The notes under the pieces are model-generated. The model did no database searches. It was not told the DNA's origin and saw nothing but the letters and a program-made list of their open reading frames with translations. The position numbers and the translations under genes are program-made. Shown here piece after piece: positions 2,332-16,384 of a DNA stretch of 64,000 bases (positions are counted from its first letter, which is position 1; each line of letters opens with the position of its first letter). Source of the stretch: Halomicrobium zhouii (GTDB lineage: Archaea > Halobacteriota > Halobacteria > Halobacteriales > Haloarculaceae); the NCBI RefSeq assembly GCF_900114435.1, contig NZ_FOZK01000001.1:868001-932000 (forward strand), in the 5' to 3' direction.

Positions 2332-3135
2332 TCACCCGAAACGGGTCGGCGGGGTTTCGATGTCGTCTTCGTCGACGCCCAGACACCGGGCGACGTCGGC
2401 AACCGACTTCGTCTCGAAGACGAAGTAGTCGGCCGGGACGGCGTCGACGATCTGACCATAGTCGGTGAGCGGCTCGTGGTCGTCGGCCGTGCCGTCGTTG
2501 TCGTGGAGGTGGCAGACCTGGATGCGGTCACCGAAGCGGTCGACGAAGTCGCGCCAGTGGTAGCCGCTCACCTTGGCGTGTCCGACGTCGAGTGTGACGC
2601 CAAGGTATTCGGGCAGGACGTTCGCCGCTCGGAGCGAGGATTCCAGGTCGTCTGGCGTCGTCGTGCAGCGCTGCTTCTCGTCGCTGACGGGCTGGTTCTC
2701 CAGGCAGAGCGGGACGCCGACGAACTGGGCGTACTCTGCGCACTCTCGCAGCGACCGGCGGGCGTTTTCGGCGGCCTTCTCCCTGACCCACGAGGGATAG
2801 CGATGCGGGACGGCACCGCCGTGGACGACGACGGCGCCCGCCCCGGCCGCCGCTGCATCGTCGAGCGTCTGCTTCACCTGGTCGACGGACGCTTCCCGGA
2901 CGGCGTCGTTGAAACTTCCCATGTTCCAGTCGCGGAACGGTGCGTGATACGTGACGGACACGCCGTACCGGTCGGCAATAGTGCCGAGTTCCGCCGGCGA
3001 GGGCGCGTCGGGATGGCCGTGGAGGTACTCGCGCTTGAGCTCGACGTGGGAGAGCCCGAGCTCGGTGACGTACTCGACGAACTGCTCGACAGAGACGCCG
3101 AAGCGGACGTCCATCGCGGCGCCAACCGACGTCAT
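2332..3135 (-). CDS. Endonuclease IV-like TIM-barrel protein at the end of the C-P lyase operon
   Basis: A 267-residue AP_endonuc_2 (xylose isomerase-like) barrel, last gene of the phnG-M operon. ATG at 3135 overlaps the phnM stop as ATGA, which fixes the start. The generic label would be sugar phosphate isomerase/epimerase, but residues in order match the metal ligands of endonuclease IV: H64, H105, E146, D183 and H186 (DVGH), H211, D218 and H220, E241. Epimerases of the fold need only E, D, H, E. A three-metal phosphodiesterase is therefore plausible. PhnP and PhnN are absent from this window, so the protein may open the ribose 1,2-cyclic phosphate formed by C-P lyase. The fold and position are seen; the activity is inference. 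Confidence 0.85.
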   Translation of the reverse strand: MTSVGAAMDVRFGVSVEQFVEYVTELGLSHVELKREYLHGHPDAPSPAELGTIADRYGVSVTYHAPFRDWNMGSFNDAVREASVDQVKQTLDDAAAAGAGAVVVHGGAVPHRYPSWVREKAAENARRSLRECAEYAQFVGVPLCLENQPVSDEKQRCTTTPDDLESSLRAANVLPEYLGVTLDVGHAKVSGYHWRDFVDRFGDRIQVCHLHDNDGTADDHEPLTDYGQIVDAVPADYFVFETKSVADVARCLGVDEDDIETPPTRFG

Positions 3136-4373
3136 CGCGTCCCCTCCGCCCGGTAGACTGGCTCGCCGGCGACGAACGCCCGCGACACCGTCGGCGTCGG
3201 CTCCCGGTCCACGACGACGAGGTCGGCGCGCGCGCCCGTCTCGATACGGCCGCGGTCCGGGAGCCCGGCCGCACTCGCCGGGTTCGCCGTCACTCTCGCG
3301 ACTCGCTCGGGGAGCGGCTCGTCGGTCTCGACGAACGTCCCGGCCAGGAGCGAGAGCGGGTGGTAGTCGGCGACCAGCGCGTCGACGACCCCGGCCTCGA
3401 TGGCGTCCGCGGTGGCGAGGTTCCCCCACTGACTCTCCCCGCGGACGAGGTTCGGTGCGCCCATCGTCACGGTCATCCCGAGCTCGTGGGCCCGTTCGGC
3501 CGTCGCCATCGTGATGGGGTACTCCGAGATGTCGACGCCCGCTTCGGCGAGGCGTTCGACCTCTGCGGGGTCCTCGTCGTCGTGGGACGCCGTGACGGCG
3601 CCGTTCGCGTGGGCACAGTCGACGACGCGTTCGATCCGCTCGCGGATGGTCGCCATCGAGACGTCGCCGCGCTCGGCGATCATCTGTTCGGCCTCCTCGA
3701 CGGTGTGGTCGTGCGAATCCCGGTAGTACTGGAGGAACGCCTCCTCGTCCCGGAACTGCCCCTTGCCGGGGACGTGGCTCATGACCGAGACGAGGTCGGC
3801 GTTGCCGGCCTCGGTCACGTCGACGACGGCGTCGACGCACTCGGGCTGGGTGACTTCACAGCGCGCGTGGAGGCGGTGGTCGGCCAGCAGGTCGTCCGTC
3901 GACTCGATGGCGTCGGTCAGCTCGGCGCCGAGTTCGGGCGACCGGTCGGCGTCGGGGTCGATCTCGAAGGAGATGGCGTGGAACTTCGTCGTGATGCCCG
4001 CCGCGAGGTTCGCCCGGTCCGCCGCCGCCAGCGCCATGTGGGTGTCCATGCGCGCCCCCGCACGCGGGTGCAGGTGCGATTCGATGTCGTCGCCGTGGAG
4101 GTCGACCAGCCCCGGCAGGACGTACTGGCCGTCGGCGTCGACGGTCACGGCCCCGTTCTCGTCCACGTCACCGACGCCGACGATGCGGTCGCCCTCGATG
4201 CGGACGCCGCCCTCGACGACCGCGTCGGGCGTGACGACGGTCGCGTTCGTCACGGCGACGGCCGACGCGGAATCGGTCGGCAGTTCACCGGTGGACTGCG
4301 GTCGCTGGCTCACGCGACCACCGGAAGAGCGTCGCTCTTCCGAGGCCTCGTTCGCTTCACGCTGTTCGCTCAC
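3132..4373 (-). CDS. phnM: Alpha-D-ribose 1-methylphosphonate 5-triphosphate diphosphatase (PhnM)
   Basis: A 413-residue amidohydrolase-fold PhnM, which releases pyrophosphate from ribose 1-methylphosphonate 5-triphosphate before C-P bond cleavage. Metal-site motifs include DLHGDDIE and SHLHPR near residue 80, TASHDDED near residue 260, and a C-terminal VADYHP. The start is GTG 4373, which overlaps the phnL stop as GTGA. The first 20 codons lie in a 60-bp segment bounded by 15-bp direct repeats, and a second in-frame GTG at 4313 sits in the same repeat context. The conserved domain begins after about residue 35, so either start gives a full enzyme. Confidence 0.95.
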   Translation of the reverse strand: MSEQREANEASEERRSSGGRVSQRPQSTGELPTDSASAVAVTNATVVTPDAVVEGGVRIEGDRIVGVGDVDENGAVTVDADGQYVLPGLVDLHGDDIESHLHPRAGARMDTHMALAAADRANLAAGITTKFHAISFEIDPDADRSPELGAELTDAIESTDDLLADHRLHARCEVTQPECVDAVVDVTEAGNADLVSVMSHVPGKGQFRDEEAFLQYYRDSHDHTVEEAEQMIAERGDVSMATIRERIERVVDCAHANGAVTASHDDEDPAEVERLAEAGVDISEYPITMATAERAHELGMTVTMGAPNLVRGESQWGNLATADAIEAGVVDALVADYHPLSLLAGTFVETDEPLPERVARVTANPASAAGLPDRGRIETGARADLVVVDREPTPTVSRAFVAGEPVYRAEGTR

Positions 4374-4382
4374 GCGACCACC
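4308..4382. repeat. 60-bp insert bounded by 15-bp direct repeats at the phnL/phnM junction
   Basis: A 15-bp sequence (GCTCACGCGACCACC on the plus strand) occurs at 4308-4322 and again at 4368-4382, exactly 60 bp apart. Between them, 4322-4331 and 4333-4342 form a perfect 10-bp inverted repeat with a 1-bp spacer (CGGAAGAGCG and its complement). Both direct repeats carry the GTGAGC start context of phnM, so the reading frame stays open. It looks like a tiny inverted-repeat element with a duplicated target. Confidence 0.7.
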
Positions 4383-5107
4383 TCCCCCTCCTCGGCGAAC
4401 GCCTCGACCGGGACCACGCGTTGCAGTTCGCCCCCGTCGAGCACGGCCACGCGGTCGGCGACCCGTTCGACGACGTCGCGGTCGTGGAAGACGCCGACGA
4501 CCGTCGTCTCCGCGTCCGTTGATTCGGATAGCAACTCGATGGCCGCCGTCCGCGTCTCGGGGTCGAGCGCACTGGTCGGCTCGTCGAGCAGGAGGAGCTC
4601 CGGTTCCGGCGCGAGCGCCTGCGCGAGGTTCACCCGCTGGCGCTCGCCGCCCGAGAACGTCGCCGGGTAGGCCTCCCACAGCTCTTCCGGGAGGCCGAGG
4701 GCGTCCAGTAGCTCGCGGGCGCGTTCGCGGGCGTCGGCCGCCGACACTCCGCGCTCCAGGAGCGGCCGCGCGACGACGTCGACGGCGGGGACGCGCGGAA
4801 TCTCGTCGAGGAACTGCGACGCGTAGCCGAGCGTCGAGTTCCGGATGGCCATCACTGTGCGGTCGTCACAGGTCGCCAGGTCGACGTCCGCGGGGTGGTA
4901 GACCGTCGACCCGGCCGTCGGTTCGTACGTCCGGTAGAGACACTTCAGCAGCGAGGACTTGCCGCTGCCGGACTCGCCCACGACGGCGAGGAACTCGCCG
5001 CCGCGGACGGTGAACGATACGTCGTCGAGCCCGACGACCTGTTTGTCGCCGAGCGCGTGCATGTCGAAGGTCTTGGTGAGCCCCTCGACGGTGAGAACGT
5101 CGGTCAT
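4370..5107 (-). CDS. phnL: C-P lyase system ABC-type ATPase PhnL
   Basis: A 245-residue ABC ATPase of the C-P lyase complex. Walker A is GESGSGKSS near residue 45, the signature is FSGGERQRVNLAQAL near residue 149, and Walker B is LLLLDEPTSALD. It has the size and PhnL-specific features (YRTYEPTAGS after Walker A) of the family and has no transport partner. In E. coli PhnK and PhnL bind the PhnGHIJ core rather than a membrane permease. It overlaps phnK (ATGA) upstream and phnM (GTGA) downstream, so translation is probably coupled. Confidence 0.95.
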   Translation of the reverse strand: MTDVLTVEGLTKTFDMHALGDKQVVGLDDVSFTVRGGEFLAVVGESGSGKSSLLKCLYRTYEPTAGSTVYHPADVDLATCDDRTVMAIRNSTLGYASQFLDEIPRVPAVDVVARPLLERGVSAADARERARELLDALGLPEELWEAYPATFSGGERQRVNLAQALAPEPELLLLDEPTSALDPETRTAAIELLSESTDAETTVVGVFHDRDVVERVADRVAVLDGGELQRVVPVEAFAEEGEVVA

Positions 5108-5934
5108 ATGACTGAGTTGATGAGGGTCTGCGTGTACTCGTGGTGCGGGTCCTCCATGACGCGGTCCGTCAAGCCGGTCTCGACGACGCGCCCGTGGCGC
5201 ATCACGAGCGTCCGGTCGGCCAGCAGCCTGACGACGCCGAGGTCGTGGCTGACGACGACGGCGGCCACGTCCTGCTCGCGCTGGATGCGCCGGAACATGT
5301 CCAGGACGCGGGCCTGGACGCTGACGTCGAGCCCGGTCGTCGGTTCGTCCAGGATCACCACGTCCGGGTCGGTGGCCAGCGCGCGAGCGATCTGGACGCG
5401 CCGTTGCATCCCACCGCTGTACGTCTCCGTCGGGTCGTCCATCCGCTCGACCGGGACCTCCGTCTCTTCGAAGAGGTCGCGGACGCGGTCGCGGACGTCC
5501 CCGTAGTTGCGCCAGCCGGCGGCGAGCAGCTTCTCGGCGACGTTGCCGCCGCCGGTGAACGACAGGTTCAGCCCGTCGCGGACGTGCTGGTGGACGAGGC
5601 CGACCGCGCCGTTCCGGAGCCGGTGACGCGTCTCGTAGTCGGCGTCCAGGAGGTTGCCGTCGTGGCCGTCGAGTCGGACGTCACCGCTGGCCTGCCCATC
5701 GGCCGCGCGTTCGAGCGCGAGTAGCTCCGCGACGCTGGACTTCCCCGAGCCGGACTCGCCGACGACGCCCAGCACCTTGCCGGGCTCGACGTCGAGCGAG
5801 ACGTCGGCACAGGCCACCACGGCGCCGCATTCGGGACACTGGTTCGTCCCCGCGTCGTCGCCGGTTAGTTCGACGCAGTCGCCACAGGAGTCGCCGTAGA
5901 CCCGCCGCAGGCCGCTGGCGTCCAGGAGCGTCAC
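5104..5934 (-). CDS. phnK: C-P lyase system ABC-type ATPase PhnK with a Cys-rich insert
   Basis: A 276-residue ABC ATPase that docks on PhnJ in the C-P lyase core. Walker A is GESGSGKSS, the signature is YSGGMQRRVQIARAL, and Walker B is VVILDEPTTGLD. Near the N-terminus it carries an insertion not present in E. coli PhnK, with C17, C20, C33, C36 and C42 in a CxxC-12-CxxC layout, probably a small zinc ribbon. I recall such inserts in some non-proteobacterial PhnK proteins. The start is GTG 5934, overlapping the phnJ stop as GTGA. Confidence 0.95.
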   Translation of the reverse strand: MTLLDASGLRRVYGDSCGDCVELTGDDAGTNQCPECGAVVACADVSLDVEPGKVLGVVGESGSGKSSVAELLALERAADGQASGDVRLDGHDGNLLDADYETRHRLRNGAVGLVHQHVRDGLNLSFTGGGNVAEKLLAAGWRNYGDVRDRVRDLFEETEVPVERMDDPTETYSGGMQRRVQIARALATDPDVVILDEPTTGLDVSVQARVLDMFRRIQREQDVAAVVVSHDLGVVRLLADRTLVMRHGRVVETGLTDRVMEDPHHEYTQTLINSVI

Positions 5935-6989
5935 GCGTCGTCACCTCCGTTCGTAGCCATCTCATCAGCCGTCGGCCCGCCCGGCGTCCCTGGCCCCCAG
6001 TCCACCCCGTCGCGGTCGAGGTGGTGGTCCTTGGCCAGGCCGGGCTCGTCCTGCCGTTTCAGGCAGAAGCTGGTGTCGTTGCAGACGTACAGCCGGTCGC
6101 CTTCCCCGGTCTCGATCTCGGTGAGGTACGTGTCCGTCGACCCGCAGGAGCGACACGCCTGGTCGGGGAACCGCTCGACCTGGAACGATTTGTCTGCGAA
6201 CGCCAGAGGCTCGACGTCGGTGTGGGGCGGCACCGCGTAGATGCGGGCCTCGCGACCGGCCGCGAAGACGAACAGGTTGTCCGCGTCGTCCAGTTTCGGC
6301 ACGTCCCAGCGCGGGATGGGCGATGGGTCCATCAGGTAGCGCCCGGCGACCATCGTCGGGTACCGGGCCGCGATCTGGATCTCGCCCCACTCGACGACGT
6401 TCTCGTAGAGGTGGACCCACATCTTGCCGTAGTTCGCGTGGGCGTGACGCCGGCGGTTCGCCGCGTCGGAGGAGTCGACCTTCCGGAGCGCGTCGGTGAT
6501 GGGTACCTGGAGGACGAGGATCTGGTCCTCGTCCAGGACTTCCTCTGGGATCCGGTGACGGGTCTGGATCACGTCGGCCTCCGTCGTGTCGGTCGTCGTC
6601 TCGACCTCGGCGGTCGTCTCCGCGAGGCGGCGGACGTTGGCGGCGTTGACGCTCTCGTCGCTCCCCTGGTCGATGACCTTGAACGCGTCGTCGGGCCCGA
6701 GGAGGGAGAGCGACGCCTGGATGCCGCCGGTGCCCCACCCGCGAGCGAGTGGCATCGGCCGGGACGCGAAGGGCACCTGGTGGCCCGGGATGGCGATGCC
6801 CTTCAGGATGGCTCGCCGGACCTCGCGCTTGGTGTGCTCGTCGAGGTAGGCGTAGTTGTACCCCGAGAGCCCCTCGCCGGAGAGGTCGTCGACGGCGTCC
6901 GCGACGGACGACGCCGCGACCGCCGTCCCGCTCTCGGTGGCGGCTGCCGGATCGGTCCCGTCGGCCGCGTCCGCTTCCGTGTCAGTCAT
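5931..6989 (-). CDS. phnJ: Alpha-D-ribose 1-methylphosphonate 5-phosphate C-P lyase PhnJ
   Basis: A 352-residue radical-SAM C-P lyase catalytic subunit, which cleaves the carbon-phosphorus bond to give ribose 1,2-cyclic phosphate 5-phosphate and the alkane. The cysteine set matches E. coli PhnJ: C279 and C282 (CRSC), C303 and C309, with the last as the likely thiyl cysteine and the others as iron-sulfur ligands. The IPG glycine, E. coli Gly32, is G69. Strongly conserved blocks are GYNYAYLDE, GWGTGGIQ, VIQTRHRIPE and DPSPIPRWD. A 40-residue Ala/Asp-rich N-terminal extension is typical of haloarchaeal proteins. It overlaps phnI by 8 bp. Confidence 0.97.
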   Translation of the reverse strand: MTDTEADAADGTDPAAATESGTAVAASSVADAVDDLSGEGLSGYNYAYLDEHTKREVRRAILKGIAIPGHQVPFASRPMPLARGWGTGGIQASLSLLGPDDAFKVIDQGSDESVNAANVRRLAETTAEVETTTDTTEADVIQTRHRIPEEVLDEDQILVLQVPITDALRKVDSSDAANRRRHAHANYGKMWVHLYENVVEWGEIQIAARYPTMVAGRYLMDPSPIPRWDVPKLDDADNLFVFAAGREARIYAVPPHTDVEPLAFADKSFQVERFPDQACRSCGSTDTYLTEIETGEGDRLYVCNDTSFCLKRQDEPGLAKDHHLDRDGVDWGPGTPGGPTADEMATNGGDDA

Positions 6990-8145
6990 CGTCGCTCACC
7001 TCCGGGGCGGCCACGGCGTCGTCGGCTGCCGGTTCGTCTCTCTCATCGGCGGGGGACTCGTCCGCCGTCTCGGCTCCCGCGTCGAGCCCACGGCCCTCCC
7101 GGACGGCGCGGATGCGGTCGAGGATGCTCTGGAAGGTGACGTAGTGGGGGAGTTTGAGGTGCTCGATGAAGCCAAAGGAGTCCAGCCCGTCGACGGCGTC
7201 GAGGACGAACTCGGCGTTCTCGGCGGGCTCCGCTTCGCTATCGAGCTGGATCGACGCGTCGAGGATGGTCATCGCGATGGTCTTGCGCTCGTTCCGGCCG
7301 AAGGTGAGGCCGTAGCCGAAGGCGAACTGCGGGTCGTCGCGCTTGGCGTACACGGGCACGACGGCCTCGGACTCGCTCACCTCGACGTCGGTGACCCGGA
7401 CGTCGTCGCCGGTGTATGGGTGGGTGATCCGGACGGGGAGCTTCCCGACCCGGACCTCGGCGAGCGTCGGGTGGACCTGGCCGTAGCCGCGCATGGCCGA
7501 GTAGCCCAGCGCGGTGACGGCGCCGGTCTCGCCGCGGGCGAGTTCCTGGAGCACCTCGTCCCGGTCCGCGGGGTGGGTGACCGGTTCGCGCGTCGTGTCG
7601 GTCGGCTCGTCGAACTCGTCTGCGTCGGCCGCTGGCTCGTGAACGAGCCCTTCGGACCGGAGGACGTCCATGACGTTCTGTACCGTGGTCGGCTCCGCGT
7701 CAGGGAGGTCCCAGTCCGCGGTCGGGTCGGTCTCGTCCGCACCGTCGATGTCGAAGTCGAGCAGGCGCTGGGTGTAGTCCTTGGTCGGGCCGAGTATCTG
7801 GCCGCCGGGGACGTCCTTGTACGCCGGCGATACTCGGCGCGTCGCGAACAGCTCCGACGGGTCGACCGGGTCTGTCTCGTCCCACCGCTCCAGCGTCGAG
7901 CGATAGGCCTGCAGGAGGAACGACGCCTCGACGGTGTCGCCCTGTGCCTGGATCACCGCGAGCGCAGCGAGTCGCGGCGCGTACAGCCCGCCCTCGCTCA
8001 TCGCCTGGGAAGTGAGTCGCGAGAGCTGGCCGTCGACCTGGTCGACGGAGAGCGACGGTTCGTCCGCGTCGAGGCGCTGCTTCTCGAAGAGGTCCTCGGC
8101 GCGTTCGATGATCTCCTCGCCGGCCGTGACGGCAACGTAGCCCAC
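6982..8145 (-). CDS. phnI: C-P lyase core subunit PhnI
   Basis: A 387-residue PhnI, the core subunit that, with PhnG, H and L, swaps the adenine of ATP for a phosphonate to form ribose 1-phosphonate 5-triphosphate. Recognisable blocks are GYVAVTAGEEII at the N-terminus, a conserved EGGLYAPRLAALA segment, and GYSAMRGYGQVHPTLAE in the middle. The C-terminus has a 40-residue acidic tail. The start is GTG 8145, directly adjacent to the phnH TAA stop. It is fourth from the 3' end of the core genes in a tightly packed operon. Confidence 0.95.
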   Translation of the reverse strand: MGYVAVTAGEEIIERAEDLFEKQRLDADEPSLSVDQVDGQLSRLTSQAMSEGGLYAPRLAALAVIQAQGDTVEASFLLQAYRSTLERWDETDPVDPSELFATRRVSPAYKDVPGGQILGPTKDYTQRLLDFDIDGADETDPTADWDLPDAEPTTVQNVMDVLRSEGLVHEPAADADEFDEPTDTTREPVTHPADRDEVLQELARGETGAVTALGYSAMRGYGQVHPTLAEVRVGKLPVRITHPYTGDDVRVTDVEVSESEAVVPVYAKRDDPQFAFGYGLTFGRNERKTIAMTILDASIQLDSEAEPAENAEFVLDAVDGLDSFGFIEHLKLPHYVTFQSILDRIRAVREGRGLDAGAETADESPADERDEPAADDAVAAPEVSDDD

Positions 8146-8697
8146 TTACACCACCTCCAGCTCGTTCGACCGCGGAATCGCCGCCACGCGCCTCTCACTC
8201 GCCAGGTAGGCGTCGACGCCGCGGGGATAGGTCGACTGGGCCTCCCGGAGCCGTTCGAGTTCGCCGGCAGGGAGGCCGACGCTAAGCCGGCGCGTCCCGT
8301 CGACGCCAGGTCCGGTCAGTTCGACAATCGTGAGCGCGCTGTCCGAGCCCGCTTCGAGTCCGTCGACCCGATAGACGACGGTCGCACCGTCGCTCGGTTC
8401 GACAAGCGACCCACGGCTGCACTCGCGGACGTCCCAGTCGGGCTGGCCGTGGGTGTGAAGCAGGTCGGCCTCGGCCGGCTCGGCCGGGTCGAACCGACCC
8501 CGACTCTCCAGTGCCGACCGGAGTGCATCGTCGTCGGTCCAGGTTCTGACTTCGTGGTCGACGACCGTGGCGAGGATCGCGTGACCTGCGGGCGTCGTCC
8601 CGACGTCGGCGACGGTCCCGGGCCGACTCGTCGCGTCGCACAGAGCGCGAAACGTGGCCCGCGTATCGTGAACGGGGTCGATGCCGAGCGCTCTCAC
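8146..8697 (-). CDS. phnH: C-P lyase core subunit PhnH
   Basis: A 183-residue PhnH, a structural subunit of the PhnGHIJ complex. Conserved PhnH blocks are present: DPVHDTRATFRALCDATSRPG at the N-terminus and LPAGELERLREAQSTYPRGVDAYL near the C-terminus (written here as family pattern, with positions about 8-28 and 143-165). The start is GTG 8697, which overlaps the phnG stop as GTGA. The same frame stays open far upstream, but that part is phnG's shadow, so the short form is the gene. Confidence 0.93.
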   Translation of the reverse strand: MRALGIDPVHDTRATFRALCDATSRPGTVADVGTTPAGHAILATVVDHEVRTWTDDDALRSALESRGRFDPAEPAEADLLHTHGQPDWDVRECSRGSLVEPSDGATVVYRVDGLEAGSDSALTIVELTGPGVDGTRRLSVGLPAGELERLREAQSTYPRGVDAYLASERRVAAIPRSNELEVV

Positions 8698-9137
8698 AGG
8701 TCGTCCTCCATCGTCTCGAACTCGACGGTCGTGTGGCGACTCTCCGCCCACGTCTGTTCGCGCTCGTGTTGGTACTCCTCGCCTGCCTGTTCGAGGACGG
8801 CGACGGCCTCGTCGGCGATCGGGTGGCCGTCGGCGACGGCGGCATCGACGATGGCCCCGGAGAGTGCTGCGCGCTCGGCTTTGCCCGGAACCATCGCGAA
8901 TCCTCGCTCGCCGTCGAGGGAGACCTCCGCGGGCGTGACGACGACCTCGCCGAGGTTGAACGGCCGACGCTCGACGGGTTCGACGACGCGCTGCATCACG
9001 AGCTGTGGCCGCGGTTCCTGGAGTACGTCGAGCGTCGGGTCGCCGGCGAGCACCTGGTCGGCGACGGATTCGAGGGCGTCGCCGTCGCAGGCGGCGATCA
9101 GTTCGAAGCGGTCCGACCGGTCGTGTGGATCGTCCAT
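8694..9137 (-). CDS. phnG: C-P lyase core subunit PhnG
   Basis: A PhnG of about 147 residues, first gene of the C-P lyase operon. The fold-typical centre (RRPFNLGEVVVTPAEVSL, then GFAMVPGKAERAALSGAIVDA) matches the family, including the GKDxxxAExxALxDA-like block of E. coli PhnG. ATG 9137 is preferred; GTG 9155 is also open and closer to a GGCTTATCG TATA-like element at about 9168-9176. The operon then runs G-H-I-J-K-L-M and the TIM-barrel gene without gaps. Confidence 0.9.
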   Translation of the reverse strand: MDDPHDRSDRFELIAACDGDALESVADQVLAGDPTLDVLQEPRPQLVMQRVVEPVERRPFNLGEVVVTPAEVSLDGERGFAMVPGKAERAALSGAIVDAAVADGHPIADEAVAVLEQAGEEYQHEREQTWAESRHTTVEFETMEDDL

Positions 9138-9363
9138 GTGATCGAGCGGACCCACCCGAATGAACCCGATAAGCCTTCACTGCGTACTCTCCATCGCTGC
9201 CAGCGTGGGCCGGTTCGATCCATCCCCTCGATCGAGCGGTCCGGACTAGTATGGACCCGTGTTCCAGAATCGCTGATCGAGACAGAGAGGGAGTCGGGTG
9301 GACAGGTCTCTCCGGACTTTACGCAGCAAACGGTTATTCTACCCACTCCGGGCCGTTCAGGTG
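9138..9363. promoter_or_regulatory. Divergent promoter region of the two phn operons
   Basis: About 220 bp separates phnG (leftward) from phnD (rightward). A TTATTCTA element near 9333-9340 lies 25-30 bp before GTG 9361 and ATG 9364, which fits a leaderless phnD transcript. A CTTAT element near 9170 serves the phnG side. Any phosphate-responsive operator should lie between them; I see no clear palindrome. Confidence 0.55.
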
Positions 9364-10386
9364 ATGTTGGACGAGACCAGTACCGACGGATCGGTTGGAC
9401 GGAAACGGACAGACGGGATGGACTCGCGACGGGTGAGCCGGCGGGGGTTCATCGTCGGCGGCGCAGCGGGGACCACCGCACTGACCGGCCTCGCGGGATG
9501 TTCGGGCGTGCTCGGTGGCGGCGGAAGTGAGCCGATAACGATGCTGCTGACGCCGGACACGCCGTCGGACGTGCGGCCGCAGTACGCCCCGGTTCACGAC
9601 ATGCTCGAGGGGGAGATCGATGGACTCGACCTGGAGATGGAGGTTCCCCAGGACTACTCCGCCGTCCGCACCGCCCTGGAGAGTGAACAGGCCGAAATCG
9701 GGATGGACGACGTGACGCTCATCTCGAAGCCCGACATGATGGACCTGTTCGGGACCGCCGTCACGGGCGGAACGGCCTTCTACTTCTCGATGATGCTCAC
9801 GAAGCCAGACTCGGACATCGACGAGCGGACGGACATCGAGGGGAAGAACATGGCCTTCGCCGACCGGCTCTCGACGAGCGGGTCTATCTTCGCCGTCTAC
9901 GCGCTCAAGGAGGCCGGCCTGGACGTCGGCGACGCCCCGGACGGGGACCCGGTCGACTTCGAGGGGACGTGGTCCAACCACGGTGACGCCGTCCAGCGCG
10001 TGCTGAACGACGAGGCCGACGCATGCACCACCTGGTCCGGGAACGGAATGGCCTACCTCGCCGAGGACCAGGAACTTCCCGACCGCGTCGCAGAGGAGGA
10101 CTCGTTCATCGGGAACCGCGGTCAGGAAGGCACGGCGCTCCGGCCGTTCTGGTGGTCGTTCCCGATCCCCAAACAGCCGATCTACGCCCGCCAGTCGTGG
10201 GATTCACCGATGAAAGCGAAGATCCGCGAGCAACTGATCGCGTCCGACGAGTCGTTGATACAGGAGTATCTTCCGGAGGACTACAACGAGAACGACCTGC
10301 CGTTCACGACGCTCGAGGAGACGACGATGGACAACTACGAACCCGTGATCAAACGGCTCAACGACCTCGGCATCGACCTCGGCTAG
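9364..10386 (+). CDS. phnD: Phosphonate/phosphate-type ABC transporter substrate-binding lipoprotein PhnD
   Basis: A lipoprotein of about 340 residues that binds phosphonate (or a related phosphorus oxyanion) for PhnCE. The Tat signal SRRGFIVGG is followed by a lipobox ending at C46. The PhnD domain is recognised from DTPSDVRPQYAPVHDMLE, AEIGMDDVTL, the STSGSIF ligand loop and the PIPKQPIYAR stretch. ATG 9364 is chosen because a TATA-like box lies 25-30 bp before it; ATG 9418 gives a shorter signal region. It opens the phnD-C-E-acyltransferase operon, divergent from the C-P lyase genes. Confidence 0.9.
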   Translation: MLDETSTDGSVGRKRTDGMDSRRVSRRGFIVGGAAGTTALTGLAGCSGVLGGGGSEPITMLLTPDTPSDVRPQYAPVHDMLEGEIDGLDLEMEVPQDYSAVRTALESEQAEIGMDDVTLISKPDMMDLFGTAVTGGTAFYFSMMLTKPDSDIDERTDIEGKNMAFADRLSTSGSIFAVYALKEAGLDVGDAPDGDPVDFEGTWSNHGDAVQRVLNDEADACTTWSGNGMAYLAEDQELPDRVAEEDSFIGNRGQEGTALRPFWWSFPIPKQPIYARQSWDSPMKAKIREQLIASDESLIQEYLPEDYNENDLPFTTLEETTMDNYEPVIKRLNDLGIDLG

Positions 10387-10413: not shown

Positions 10414-11217
10414 ATGAGTACACTCACCGTAGAGAACCTGACCAAGGAGTACGGCGACGTCACGGCGGTCGAGGACGTCTCCTTCGAGATCGAGGACGAG
10501 TTCGTCGTCCTGCTGGGCGAGTCCGGCGCCGGCAAGTCGACGCTACTGCGTTGCGTGAACGGGCTGACCGAGCCGACCAGCGGCGGCGTCTACCTCGACG
10601 GCGAACCCCTCGAAGGGTCCCAGCCGTCGGTCGGGATGATCTTCCAGCAGCACAACCTCGTCGAGGGCGTCTCGGCGTACCTGAACGCACTCACCGGCTC
10701 GCTCGAACGAGCCGGGTTCGTCGAGAGCCTGTTCCAGTGGCAAGACCGCGAGGACAAGCGACGGGCCCTGGAAGCGCTCGAGACCGTCGGCCTCCTCGAC
10801 GAAGCACACCAGCGCGTTACGCAGATGAGCGGCGGCCAGCAACAGCGCGTTGGCATCGCCAGGGCGCTAGTCCAGGACCCGTCACTCCTGCTCGCCGACG
10901 AACCCGTCGCGAGCCTCGACCCGTCCAGCGCCGAGACGGTGATGGGCTACCTGAAGAAGGCCGCGACGGTCCACCAGGTGACGGCGCTCGTGAGCCTCCA
11001 CCAGGTGAACATCGCGGCCCACTTCGGCGAGCGGTTCATCGGGCTGCGCGACGGCCAGTTGCTGTTCGACGTCGGGAGCGACGAACTCACCGGCGACCTC
11101 ATCGACGACCTCTACGGCGACGTCGAGACGGTCGGACTGGCCGACGACCCCGTCGCAGTCGACGCAAACGGCGAGTCGCCCCCGGTTGACGGCGACGACT
11201 GGAGGGTCGAGGCGTGA
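10414..11217 (+). CDS. phnC: Phosphonate ABC transporter ATP-binding protein PhnC
   Basis: A 267-residue importer ATPase. Walker A is GESGAGKST near residue 36, the signature is MSGGQQQRVGIARAL near residue 141, and Walker B is LLADEPVASLDP. The Q-loop context FQQHNLVEGVSAYLNALTG and the end-of-domain AHFGERFIGLRDG are PhnC-type. It follows phnD by 27 bp and overlaps phnE as GTGA. Confidence 0.95.
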   Translation: MSTLTVENLTKEYGDVTAVEDVSFEIEDEFVVLLGESGAGKSTLLRCVNGLTEPTSGGVYLDGEPLEGSQPSVGMIFQQHNLVEGVSAYLNALTGSLERAGFVESLFQWQDREDKRRALEALETVGLLDEAHQRVTQMSGGQQQRVGIARALVQDPSLLLADEPVASLDPSSAETVMGYLKKAATVHQVTALVSLHQVNIAAHFGERFIGLRDGQLLFDVGSDELTGDLIDDLYGDVETVGLADDPVAVDANGESPPVDGDDWRVEA

Positions 11218-12209
11218 GTTCGGAGTCACCGCCGGGCGGGGGGCTCCGCGCCTACTTCGGGTTCGCGGAGACCGGCACCTCCGACGTCGACCGGAAGCTC
11301 ACGGAACTCAAACGGCGAAAGACGGTCCGGCGGCTCTGGACCGTGCTCGGCGTCGTCGTCGGGGGGTGGCTGTTCCTGCTGAGCCTCCAGACTGCGGAGT
11401 TCACGCTCGCACAGCTGACGACCCAGTTCCCCTTCTTCGTCGACGCGCTCACGGAGTACTTCCCGCCGACAACCTACTTCGGCGTCCCGTTCGTCGACGT
11501 CGGCCAGTACTGGAACTTCATGGTCGAGGCGGAGCTGTTCCAGGCCTCGCAGGTGACGATGGCCATCGCGTTCGCCGGGACCGTGCTCGGCCTCCCGGGC
11601 GCGCTGTTGTTCGGCATCCTCGCGAGCGAGCGGGTCGTCCCGTACCCGTTCAACTTCCTCTTCAGGGGGACGATGAGCCTGATCCGCGCCATCCCGGCGC
11701 TGGTCTGGGCGCTCATCTTCATCCCGCTCGGCGGCGTCTCGCCCTTCACCGGCGTGCTGGCGATCATGGTCGACACCACGGGCTACCTGGGCCGACTGTT
11801 CACCGACGAACTCGAAGAGATAGCCGACGGCCCCATCGAGGGCGTCGAGAGCACCGGCGCGGGGTCGCGCCAGGTCATCTCGTTCGGTATGCTGAGCCAG
11901 GTGTTCCGTCAGTTCATCGCCTGGATCGCCTTCGACCTCGAACACAACGTCCGCGTCGCCATCACCCTCGGCCTCATCGGCGCCGGTGGGCTCGGCCTCG
12001 AACTCAACATCCAGAAGCAGACGTTCAACTACACCGAGATGATGGCCTGCATCATCCTGGTCGTCGTCCTCGCCGGCTCCGTCGAACTGGCGAGCCAGCG
12101 CGTGCGATCGTACCTGCGCGACGAGGACGACGTCGAGAAGACCGGCGTGCTCGAGGCGTTCGTCACCGCCCCGCGAAAGATCGTCGAGTCGGCTGGGGGG
12201 AGGCGGTGA
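11214..12209 (+). CDS. phnE: Phosphonate ABC transporter permease PhnE
   Basis: A 331-residue membrane protein with about six transmembrane segments and the binding-protein-dependent permease domain from residue 105 on. The EAA-like loop reads GPIEGVESTGAGSRQVISFGM, with typical PhnE spacing. The start is GTG 11214, overlapping phnC. The acidic last 50 residues are cytoplasmic and follow the final segment at VVVLAGSVELASQ. Confidence 0.95.
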   Translation: MSSESPPGGGLRAYFGFAETGTSDVDRKLTELKRRKTVRRLWTVLGVVVGGWLFLLSLQTAEFTLAQLTTQFPFFVDALTEYFPPTTYFGVPFVDVGQYWNFMVEAELFQASQVTMAIAFAGTVLGLPGALLFGILASERVVPYPFNFLFRGTMSLIRAIPALVWALIFIPLGGVSPFTGVLAIMVDTTGYLGRLFTDELEEIADGPIEGVESTGAGSRQVISFGMLSQVFRQFIAWIAFDLEHNVRVAITLGLIGAGGLGLELNIQKQTFNYTEMMACIILVVVLAGSVELASQRVRSYLRDEDDVEKTGVLEAFVTAPRKIVESAGGRR

Positions 12210-12213
12210 CCGG

Positions 12214-12906
12214 ATGACGACGCACTTCGAGCGCCGCGAGGAGGGATACGTCGTCGAGTCGTACGGCGAGGACCGCGTCGGTGGCCTCTCGCCCGAACCG
12301 ACGCTCCACGATCCCGTCCAGATCACGGAGAGCACGCTTGGCGAGTGGACGGAGGTGCGCGCCGGATCACGGGTCAACGAGGCGACGATCGGCGACTACA
12401 CCTACCTGATGGAGCGTGTCCAGCTGGACTACACGACTATCGGGAAGTTCGGTAACGTCGCCTCTGACGCCCGTCTCGGTCCGACGAACCATCCCATCGA
12501 CCGACCGTCGGCCCACCACTTCACGTATCGTTCGTCGATGTACGACCTCGCCGACGAAGACGACGACTCTATCTTCGCGTGGCGCGCCGACCAGCCCGTC
12601 ACCGTCGGCCACGACGCCTGGATCGGCCACGGCGCCATCGTCCTCCCCGGCGTCGAAATCGGCAACGGTGCGGTCGTCGGGGCCGGCGCGGTCGTTGCCC
12701 GCGACGTCGACCCATACACGGTGGTCGCGGGCGTCCCGGCCGAACCGATTCGGCGTCGATTCCCCGAAGACGTCGCCGAGCGGATCGAGGCGACGGAGTG
12801 GTGGGAGTGGGACCACGAGACGCTCGCCGACCGGCTCGACGCCTTCCGCGACCTCAACGTGTTTCTGGAGCGATACGCGCCCGAGACGACCGGAGTAGTG
12901 GAGTAA
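12214..12906 (+). CDS. Phosphonate-associated hexapeptide-repeat acyltransferase
   Basis: A 230-residue left-handed beta-helix protein of the transferase hexapeptide group that accompanies phn operons (the TIGR03308-like subfamily). Hexapeptide rungs are visible at 40-90 and again at 128-175 (GHDAWIGHGAIVLPGVEIGNGA), ending in a VVAGVPAEPIRRRF tail. It is fourth in the phnDCE operon, 4 bp after phnE. The substrate is not known; acetylation of an aminophosphonate, as PhnO does, is only an inference. Confidence 0.88.
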   Translation: MTTHFERREEGYVVESYGEDRVGGLSPEPTLHDPVQITESTLGEWTEVRAGSRVNEATIGDYTYLMERVQLDYTTIGKFGNVASDARLGPTNHPIDRPSAHHFTYRSSMYDLADEDDDSIFAWRADQPVTVGHDAWIGHGAIVLPGVEIGNGAVVGAGAVVARDVDPYTVVAGVPAEPIRRRFPEDVAERIEATEWWEWDHETLADRLDAFRDLNVFLERYAPETTGVVE

Positions 12907-14257: not shown

Positions 14258-15172
14258 TCAGATCATCGCGTGGTCGGCCTCGATTCCGGAGTGCAGCCGG
14301 ACGGCGATTTCGGCGGCGTCGACCCAGTAGTAGATCGCCCGTTCGAGCGCTCGCGTCACCGTCACGAGGTGGCCGTACAGCTCCGGATCGTAGGCGGTGA
14401 CGAGTTCGAACAGTTCGTCGAGGTCGCGGTGGACCGTCTCCTCCTCGGCGTGTAAGGCGTCGTAGGCCTCCAGATCGCCCTCGAAGAGGACGTCCACGAG
14501 ATAGCCGTTGATCCGGCTGCCCGCCTCGAAGACGTCGAGGATGCGTTCCTCGACGACGCCGGTCGTCTCGGTGTCCTGTCGGTCGACGACGTCGGCGATG
14601 AAACACGACCGGTCGCCGACGATCTCGAGGTTCGTCGCGATCGTCGCCAGGTCCGAGGCGACGCGGTTGCCCGGCCAGTCGGTCGTCAGCGTGTACGACT
14701 TGAGTTCCCCGAGCACGGCGAAGTAGCGCTCGTTGGTGAGCGATTCGAGTCCGTCGGCCGGGTGGTCCGGCGAGTCGCCGACGAAGGCGAGTCGCGCCGC
14801 CTCGTACTGCGTCGAGGTCACGTCGTCGAGCCGTTCGAGGAGCTCGAGGACGGTCGTCCCCCTGTCGGTGCCGGTCGCACGACGCCCGTTCTCGGAGGCG
14901 GCGTCCGCGGCCGTCTCGAAGAACTCCGAGACGCTGTCTGCGGCGTCGAAGACGGCCGCGTCGTCGACGACGTAGGCTTTCCTGACGACGCCGTCACGTT
15001 TCAGTTCCTGGAGCAGTTCGGAGACGTACTGTTCGGAGATGCCGACCGCGTCGGCCAGGTCCGCTTTCGTCGCCGGCGCCGTTCGGTCGACGGCTTCGAT
15101 TACCTGGGAGAGGGTGGCGTCCCGACCGTGCCTCGTCGCGTCTCTCGGCCGATGCCACGTTTTGCGGGACAT
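14258..15172 (-). CDS. Winged-helix/PhoU-domain regulator
   Basis: A 304-residue protein. Residues 15-70 form a winged helix (LSQVIEAVDRTAPATKADLADAVGISEQYVSELLQELKRDGVV), and the rest is an all-helical PhoU-like domain with two related halves (around TSTQYEAARLA and near the AIYYWVDAAEIAVRL end). PhoU proteins report phosphate status to transporters and regulators. Fusion to a DNA-binding domain suggests direct transcriptional control. It is divergent from another PhoU protein and close to the phn operons, so it is a candidate regulator of this phosphorus block. Confidence 0.82.
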   Translation of the reverse strand: MSRKTWHRPRDATRHGRDATLSQVIEAVDRTAPATKADLADAVGISEQYVSELLQELKRDGVVRKAYVVDDAAVFDAADSVSEFFETAADAASENGRRATGTDRGTTVLELLERLDDVTSTQYEAARLAFVGDSPDHPADGLESLTNERYFAVLGELKSYTLTTDWPGNRVASDLATIATNLEIVGDRSCFIADVVDRQDTETTGVVEERILDVFEAGSRINGYLVDVLFEGDLEAYDALHAEEETVHRDLDELFELVTAYDPELYGHLVTVTRALERAIYYWVDAAEIAVRLHSGIEADHAMI

Positions 15173-15367
15173 ACGTCCCCGGGCTCGTGTGCTCGCTATA
15201 GGGCTATCCCACAGACTGTCTGGACGGCTATATAGGCTCCATCGCTCCGGCTCCCGTCGGCGGTTCGATCCGCACCTCCGTACCGACGGTACGGATATAT
15301 ATCGGACGGAACTGGCACGTTCCCCTCATATAAACTCTCAGATAGGGTCTCCGTGAGAACGCTCCAT
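15173..15367. promoter_or_regulatory. Divergent promoter with a palindromic operator between two PhoU-type regulators
   Basis: A perfect 7-bp inverted repeat with a 3-bp spacer (CCGTACC-GAC-GGTACGG) lies at 15278-15294. AT-rich boxes CTATATAGG (about 15229-15237) and GATATATATC (about 15294-15303) flank it. ATATAAA at 15328-15334 is the likely TATA box for the rightward gene, with a CTATAGG box near 15197 for the leftward one. The dyad is a good candidate binding site for one of the two flanking regulators. Confidence 0.6.
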
Positions 15368-16384
15368 ATGGAGACTCGGAAAGTGCAACTCTCTGGGGGG
15401 ACGACGTACACGGTCTCGTTACCGAAAGCCTGGGCGACCGAGAACGGGATCGACGCCGGTTCAGTCCTCTCACTCCACCCGAACGGCGACGGATCCCTCC
15501 TCGTCGAGGCGTCGCCAGACCGGTCGAAAGACCGCCGGACGGCGACGGTCGACGTCTCCACCAGCGGGGCCAACGCCGTCAAACAGCGCGTCCACGCGCT
15601 CCACGCGGTCGGATTCGACGAGGTGACGCTCGTCGACCAGGGCGGGCACGACGCGGACAGGCGGCAGGTCGTCGGACGGACCGTCGAGGAACTCTCCGGC
15701 TTCGAGCTGCTCGAAGTCACCGACACCCGCATCCGGCTGACGAACCTCATCGACGCGGAGAACGTCGAGGTCCGGAAGAGCGCACTCCGACTGCGTCTGG
15801 TGACGCTCGCGATGCATCGCGACGCCGTTACTGCCGTCGTGAACGGCGACGAGGGCCTCGCCGAGCGCGTCGTCGGCAGGGACGCCGAGGCGGACAAACT
15901 GTTCGCCATGGTGACCAGGCACTTCCGGCGGGCGCTCACCGACCTCCACGAGGTAGAGAAGCTCGACCACGGCCGCGACGACCTCTTCGAGTACTACTAC
16001 ACGTGCCGGCAGTTCGAGCGCATCGCCGACCACGCGGAGAAGATAGCCCGCTTCGCCCTCGACCCTGACGCGGGCCTGCCGGCCGACTTCGGTGACCGGA
16101 TCGTCTCGCTCGGCAAGGACGCGCGCCAGATCGTCGACCAGGCGGCGGACGTCGTCCTCGCGGACGCCGGGATCGAGGCCGCCCACCTCGCGCTCGAACA
16201 CCGCGACGACCTGGTCGCCGACATCGAGACGCTCGACCGGGAGCTCTACGACCACGACGTCCCCGGCGAGGCCCACACCGCCGGCCTCCTCCTCGATAGC
16301 CTGCAGCGAACCGCCGAGTACGGGGCGAACGTGGCGAACATCAGCATCCAGCAGGTCTCTCGGGGGGAGGTGGACGACCGCTGA
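15368..16384 (+). CDS. AbrB-type/PhoU-domain phosphate regulator
   Basis: A protein of about 338 residues. The first 45 residues are a SpoVT/AbrB-like DNA-binding domain (ETRKVQLSGGTTYTVSLPKAW, then GSVLSLHP). Two PhoU repeats follow (YYTCRQFERIADHAEKIAR and LLLDSLQRTAEYGANVANISI, with their conserved acidic/Asn metal-site residues). This architecture is common in haloarchaeal phosphate regulation next to Pst-type transporters; here the neighbour is the phosphonate system. ATG 15368 is preferred; GTG 15353 is also in frame and near the predicted transcript start. Confidence 0.88.
   Translation: METRKVQLSGGTTYTVSLPKAWATENGIDAGSVLSLHPNGDGSLLVEASPDRSKDRRTATVDVSTSGANAVKQRVHALHAVGFDEVTLVDQGGHDADRRQVVGRTVEELSGFELLEVTDTRIRLTNLIDAENVEVRKSALRLRLVTLAMHRDAVTAVVNGDEGLAERVVGRDAEADKLFAMVTRHFRRALTDLHEVEKLDHGRDDLFEYYYTCRQFERIADHAEKIARFALDPDAGLPADFGDRIVSLGKDARQIVDQAADVVLADAGIEAAHLALEHRDDLVADIETLDRELYDHDVPGEAHTAGLLLDSLQRTAEYGANVANISIQQVSRGEVDDR

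Follow-up and report, generated by a model that had tools for sequence, protein, structure and literature searches.

The gene that closes the C-P lyase (phn) operon of the haloarchaeon Halomicrobium zhouii encodes a TIM barrel protein which is, in our judgement, fairly likely to be a three-metal hydrolase that opens the PhnJ product 5-phospho-alpha-D-ribosyl 1,2-cyclic phosphate and thereby replaces PhnP, an activity that we infer from its metal ligands, its linkage to the phn genes and the missing PhnP. The initial annotation of this DNA had put the gene forward as a candidate non-orthologous replacement of PhnP, and this proposal gains support from the co-occurrence of the gene with C-P lyase, the missing PhnP and PhnN, the ligand set related to that of endonuclease IV (EndoIV), and a relative in the phn locus of an archaeon outside the haloarchaea. 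It names a single gene for the missing archaeal step, in all 38 PhnJ-bearing genomes found, and is directly testable; if it is true, a function would be gained for a protein clade that is now annotated as sugar phosphate isomerase/epimerase. The replacement of PhnP as such is already known or proposed in bacteria, from which a PHP-family cyclic phosphate dihydrolase (cPDH) of a different fold has been described as a further substitute, and the archaeal EndoIV-like case would add a variant.

According to a 2023 review, some haloarchaea possess phn operons, archaeal phn operons are without the accessory genes phnNOP, and there are no published data on the consumption of phosphonates by archaea (PMC10574752). 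The genome paper of H. walsbyi mentions a phosphonate cluster and does not mention the TIM barrel gene, and our literature search found no paper joining phnM with the sugar phosphate isomerase annotation.

The phn operon and the distribution of its last gene

The window analysed here is a stretch of 64,000 nucleotides of the H. zhouii genome (contig NZ_FOZK01000001.1, positions 868,001 to 932,000), in which the minus-strand TIM barrel gene, at positions 3135-2332, codes for a product of 267 residues. Searches with Pfam and NCBIfam models bear out the original description of a phnG-M operon ending in this gene, the C-P lyase core phnG-H-I-J-K-L-M being complete and in order. On the minus strand, phnG (8694..9155; TIGR03293, 110.7 bits, above the cut-off) is followed by phnH (8146..8730, start approximate; TIGR03292, 147.9 bits, above the cut-off), phnI (6982..8145; PF05861, 443.6 bits), phnJ, which encodes the radical SAM subunit of C-P lyase (5931..6989; PF06007, 437.5 bits), phnK (5104..5934; best match TIGR02323, 217 bits), phnL (4370..5107; best match TIGR02324, 241 bits) and phnM (3132..4373; NF011990, 453 bits; TIGR02318, 361 bits). 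The stop codon of phnM and the start of the TIM barrel gene have 4 nt in common (ATGA), and the coupling of the two genes that had been described at the outset is thus visible in the sequence. A divergent transporter operon on the plus strand consists of phnD (9298..10386, start approximate; tblastn to an annotated phnD-type gene of Natribaculum luteum, 81%), phnC (10414..11217; tblastn to an annotated phosphonate ABC ATPase, 83%) and phnE (11214..12209; tblastn to an annotated phnE, 87%), and next to it on the same strand lies a gene for a hexapeptide acyltransferase of phosphonate loci (12214..12906; TIGR03308, 305.8 bits, above the cut-off).

Beyond the transporter operon, the stretch at 14258-16384 holds two regulator-like genes, which we take to encode an HTH/PhoU-like and an AbrB/PhoU-like protein and which probably serve phosphate regulation; about 8 of 39 loci have similar genes in the vicinity of phn. 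Downstream of the phn operon, at 1224-2105, lies a gene whose product is a glycerophosphodiester phosphodiesterase (PF03009) and has a twin-arginine-like N-terminus; the gene was considered as a part of the system and rejected, because among the compared loci it follows the TIM barrel gene only in this genome and in a close relative, HArc-gm2.

Of 391 Halobacteria genomes, 38 were found to contain PhnJ. The TIM barrel gene is present in every one of these (38/38; in two of them it is incomplete or divided by a contig break), its clade did not turn up in the other 353 Halobacteria genomes in a class-wide search, and PhnP was over the cut-off in none of the 38. Given this distribution (38/38 versus 0/353; Fisher p ~1e-53 with kinship ignored, the genome counts covering 18 genera and not being independent of kinship), the linkage with C-P lyase is not a matter of chance. 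In the class-wide search, matches of at least 58% identity were confined to PhnJ genomes, and about 22 PhnJ-less genomes contain a sister protein at 46-57% identity, nearly all of these in a separate clade (100/99 support). The gene adjoins phnM in 39 of the 39 phn loci examined (36 distinct), and of 37 distinct loci 35 show the identical overlap of 4 nt. The evolutionary distances of the TIM barrel protein and PhnJ are correlated (Mantel r 0.73). Being as constant as the core phn genes, it fits the expectation for an enzyme of an obligatory step.

Members of the sister clade (L094 4390-9762; L074-L093) possess the same nine ligands and often have a phosphatase of the PF04029 family and an ECF-type transporter encoded close by; the third transporter gene has no Pfam match, and the whole appears as an uncharacterised haloarchaeal system. 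That the gene context of this clade differs from phn was counted against the assignment of the TIM barrel protein to a phn step.

Metal ligands, fold and relatives

The protein belongs to the AP_endonuc_2 / xylose isomerase-like family PF01261 (107.5 bits versus a gathering threshold of 31.1). This is its sole Pfam match, and it is accordingly not a metallo-beta-lactamase; with PhnP, which is one (TIGR03307), it would share the reaction and the place in the pathway, whereas the folds are unrelated. All nine residues that the initial annotation had matched to the three-metal site of EndoIV are present at their positions, namely H64, H105, E146, D183, H186, H211, D218, H220 and E241. When the phn family was aligned profile to profile with eleven EndoIV sequences, including the one from this genome (E 4e-13), H64, H105, E146, D183, H186, D218, H220 and E241 fell exactly on EndoIV ligands. 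For the ninth ligand, this alignment pairs H211 with the EndoIV residue, while HMMER alignments with the EndoIV of M. tuberculosis and with an epimerase pair H209 instead. Because H209 is strictly invariant in an alignment of 49 sequences and H211 nearly so, H209 is more likely than H211 to be the ninth ligand, both being histidines, so that the original assignment holds for eight positions and probably gives way at one. The nine ligands are conserved in all phn-linked members except for one H211S substitution, and the alignments thus depict a complete and conserved three-metal set rather than a site unable to hold three metals.

The TIM barrel protein is not the EndoIV (nfo) of the cell, since it scores far under the cut-offs of the EndoIV models (18.9 bits against 129.65 for TIGR00587 and 49.3 against 244 for NF002198) and the genome has a separate nfo gene (C2:674756-675556; 236 bits against the cut-off of 129.65). 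It resembles EndoIV (Nfo; TIGR00587) in its fold and three-metal ligand set, but its gene is tied to the phn genes and not to DNA repair. The best NCBIfam match is to CbiR (NF041277; 67.2 bits, below the cut-off of 105), a metal-dependent, cobamide-remodelling phosphodiesterase of the same superfamily (PMC7733943). CbiR thus offers a precedent for the proposed activity in this superfamily and is likewise linked to a metabolic operon, but to cobamide genes, whereas the TIM barrel gene stands beside phnM in all 39 phn loci. The best solved relative, both by sequence (profile E 3.5e-33) and by fold (TM 0.77-0.79), is MJ1311 (3wqo), which has the stretch HxHDNxGxxDxH in common with the TIM barrel protein but shows 25% identity and is of unknown function, and a control search found no PhnJ in M. 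jannaschii.

The AlphaFold2 model of the protein (pLDDT 94) matched structures across the superfamily in a fold search, in which MJ1311 was followed by sugar epimerases ranking above EndoIV, with a TM of ~0.7 for both. The barrel expected at the outset was thereby recovered with confidence, but the overlay does not favour EndoIV over the epimerases. Judged from this model, fold comparison alone would not separate an EndoIV-like phosphodiesterase from an epimerase, which the ligand set does in part. The ligand set favours a phosphodiesterase because the known members with the full set (EndoIV) cleave P-O bonds, and it does so to that extent only; the substrate cannot be read from it, since the same set recurs throughout a broad, functionally uncharacterised family in phn-less archaea and bacteria.

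These comparisons bear directly on the alternative that the protein is a sugar-phosphate isomerase or epimerase, which would channel leftover pentose phosphate to central metabolism while another enzyme opens the cyclic phosphate. The database records carry this annotation, the fold search places epimerases at the level of EndoIV (including the L-xylulose 5-phosphate 3-epimerase UlaE, TM 0.73), and the E, D, H, E set used by epimerases is present in the protein according to the epimerase alignment. We nevertheless regard this function as quite improbable, since the aligned epimerase has nothing corresponding to the conserved H64, H105, D218 and H220 of this protein, in agreement with the earlier statement that simple epimerases make do with four of the nine ligands, and since the epimerase models of NCBIfam all score below their cut-offs (the D-psicose 3-epimerase model, applied as the test for D-tagatose/D-psicose 3-epimerases, gives 27.3 against 300 bits). 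Furthermore, if the gene served an optional channelling step, its presence in 38 of 38 genomes with PhnP in none would be surprising. Still a little less probable is a phosphodiesterase acting upstream of C-P lyase, which would free phosphonic acids from esters with glycerol or polysaccharide. The ligand evidence for a phosphodiesterase applies to it equally, and coupling to the phn genes would also be in keeping with it, but an accessory step should be patchy, like the HAD phosphatase gene described below, rather than constant like phnG-M, and the PhnP step would be left empty.

The PhnP step and the fate of its product

A family search found PhnP over the cut-off in 0/38 and PhnN in 0/38 of the PhnJ-bearing haloarchaea, and neither phnP nor phnN was found by it in the whole H. 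zhouii genome. The absence of both genes that had first been observed in the window is thereby extended to the genome, and a phnP located elsewhere and co-occurring with this gene, which the initial annotation had named as evidence to the contrary, did not emerge over the cut-off among the 38. PhnP-like metallo-beta-lactamase matches below the cut-off score equally in 30 PhnJ-less haloarchaea and are therefore generic members of that family; a true PhnP or PhnN encoded elsewhere was rejected on these grounds. All 58 genomes tested, PhnJ-bearing and PhnJ-less alike, encode 2H phosphodiesterases, which are therefore not phn-specific. As none is found among the conserved neighbours and the family is universal, an RcsF-like 2H replacement within the phn loci was likewise rejected.

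Such universal 2H or metallo-beta-lactamase proteins could carry out the PhnP step, and in bacteria the 2H-type phosphodiesterase RcsF, of yet another fold, accompanies phn operons without phnP and has been proposed as a replacement (PMC10574752). That a housekeeping protein of either kind opens the ring, the TIM barrel protein dealing with what is then formed, for instance by acting as a ribose 1,5-bisphosphate phosphatase, is about as improbable as the upstream function, for although both kinds occur in all genomes tested, they do so equally without PhnJ, none is a conserved neighbour in phn loci, and 16 of 34 loci already have a HAD phosphatase gene after the TIM barrel gene.

Under the preferred reading as a PhnP-replacing hydrolase, the TIM barrel enzyme would carry out the reaction that falls to PhnP in E. 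coli and would bind three metals, probably zinc. As in EndoIV, a metal-bound hydroxide would serve as the nucleophile towards the phosphorus of the cyclic ester, with the third metal stabilising the leaving sugar oxygen. The ring may be opened to ribose 1,5-bisphosphate, as by PhnP, with a HAD phosphatase acting thereafter in some species; alternatively, hydrolysis may proceed further to ribose 5-phosphate and Pi. The latter course is suggested by EndoIV, which also has 3'-phosphatase activity, and would make PhnN unnecessary too. The HAD phosphatase gene lies directly after the TIM barrel gene in the 16 of 34 haloarchaeal phn loci that have it there (e.g. L068 5213-5878), often with an 8-nt overlap, and this position fits an order from diester to monoester to phosphate.

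In haloarchaea, ribose 1,5-bisphosphate is taken up by the R15P isomerase of the pentose bisphosphate pathway (PMC9700705). Only 19 of the 38 PhnJ genomes have this enzyme at a score over the cut-off, H. zhouii not being among them, and hence we rejected the view that ribose 1,5-bisphosphate always enters that pathway; the HAD gene and the R15P isomerase showed no significant complementarity in their distribution (Fisher p 0.33). With neither PhnN nor R15P isomerase in this genome, ribose 1,5-bisphosphate would have no evident onward route, which counts against the replacement of PhnP as we propose it. In one genome, an eIF2B/R15P-isomerase-like gene (G068:C1:1295005-1295760; 74 bits to TIGR00511) is situated just past the phn operon.

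C-P lyase loci outside the haloarchaea

A phylum-wide search with PhnJ recovered three genomes over the cut-off outside Halobacteria (G408, G520 and G557). In G408, an AP_endonuc_2 protein of 304 residues, with ~27% identity to the TIM barrel protein and all nine ligands, is encoded 12 nt after phnM (locus L207). In a tree it is placed outside the haloarchaeal clade, on a long branch whose exact place is unsure, and this placement points to what was probably a separate recruitment next to phnM. The phn operon of this non-haloarchaeal archaeon extends over L207 425-9664, and the locus has 39% G+C. G520 has no such gene beside phnM, where non-coding and pdxS-like sequence is found instead, and this counts against the proposed role; the third non-haloarchaeal contig ends within phnJ. 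Around the relatives in Thermococcus, Bathyarchaeota, Acetothermia and Bacillota, no phn genes were found. A broader scenario, which we consider conceivable but somewhat unlikely, is that archaeal C-P lyase pathways replaced PhnP at least twice, in the haloarchaea and in the G408 lineage, by recruiting three-metal enzymes of the EndoIV fold and thus another fold for the same step, and that these enzymes release phosphate directly, without a need for PhnN or PRPP salvage.

The comparison with bacteria drew on three plasmid phn loci, from Thermus, Pseudonocardia and Nostoc. Nothing is evident in the slot after phnM in the Nostoc locus, whereas a metallophosphoesterase of TIGR00282 is encoded near the phn genes of Thermus (L205 16072-16866) and a gene of the inositol monophosphatase family follows phnM in Pseudonocardia (L211 12664-13455). 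That the three loci end differently suggests that this slot may be taken by various phosphoesterases, and the proteins of Thermus and Pseudonocardia are possible further replacements of PhnP.
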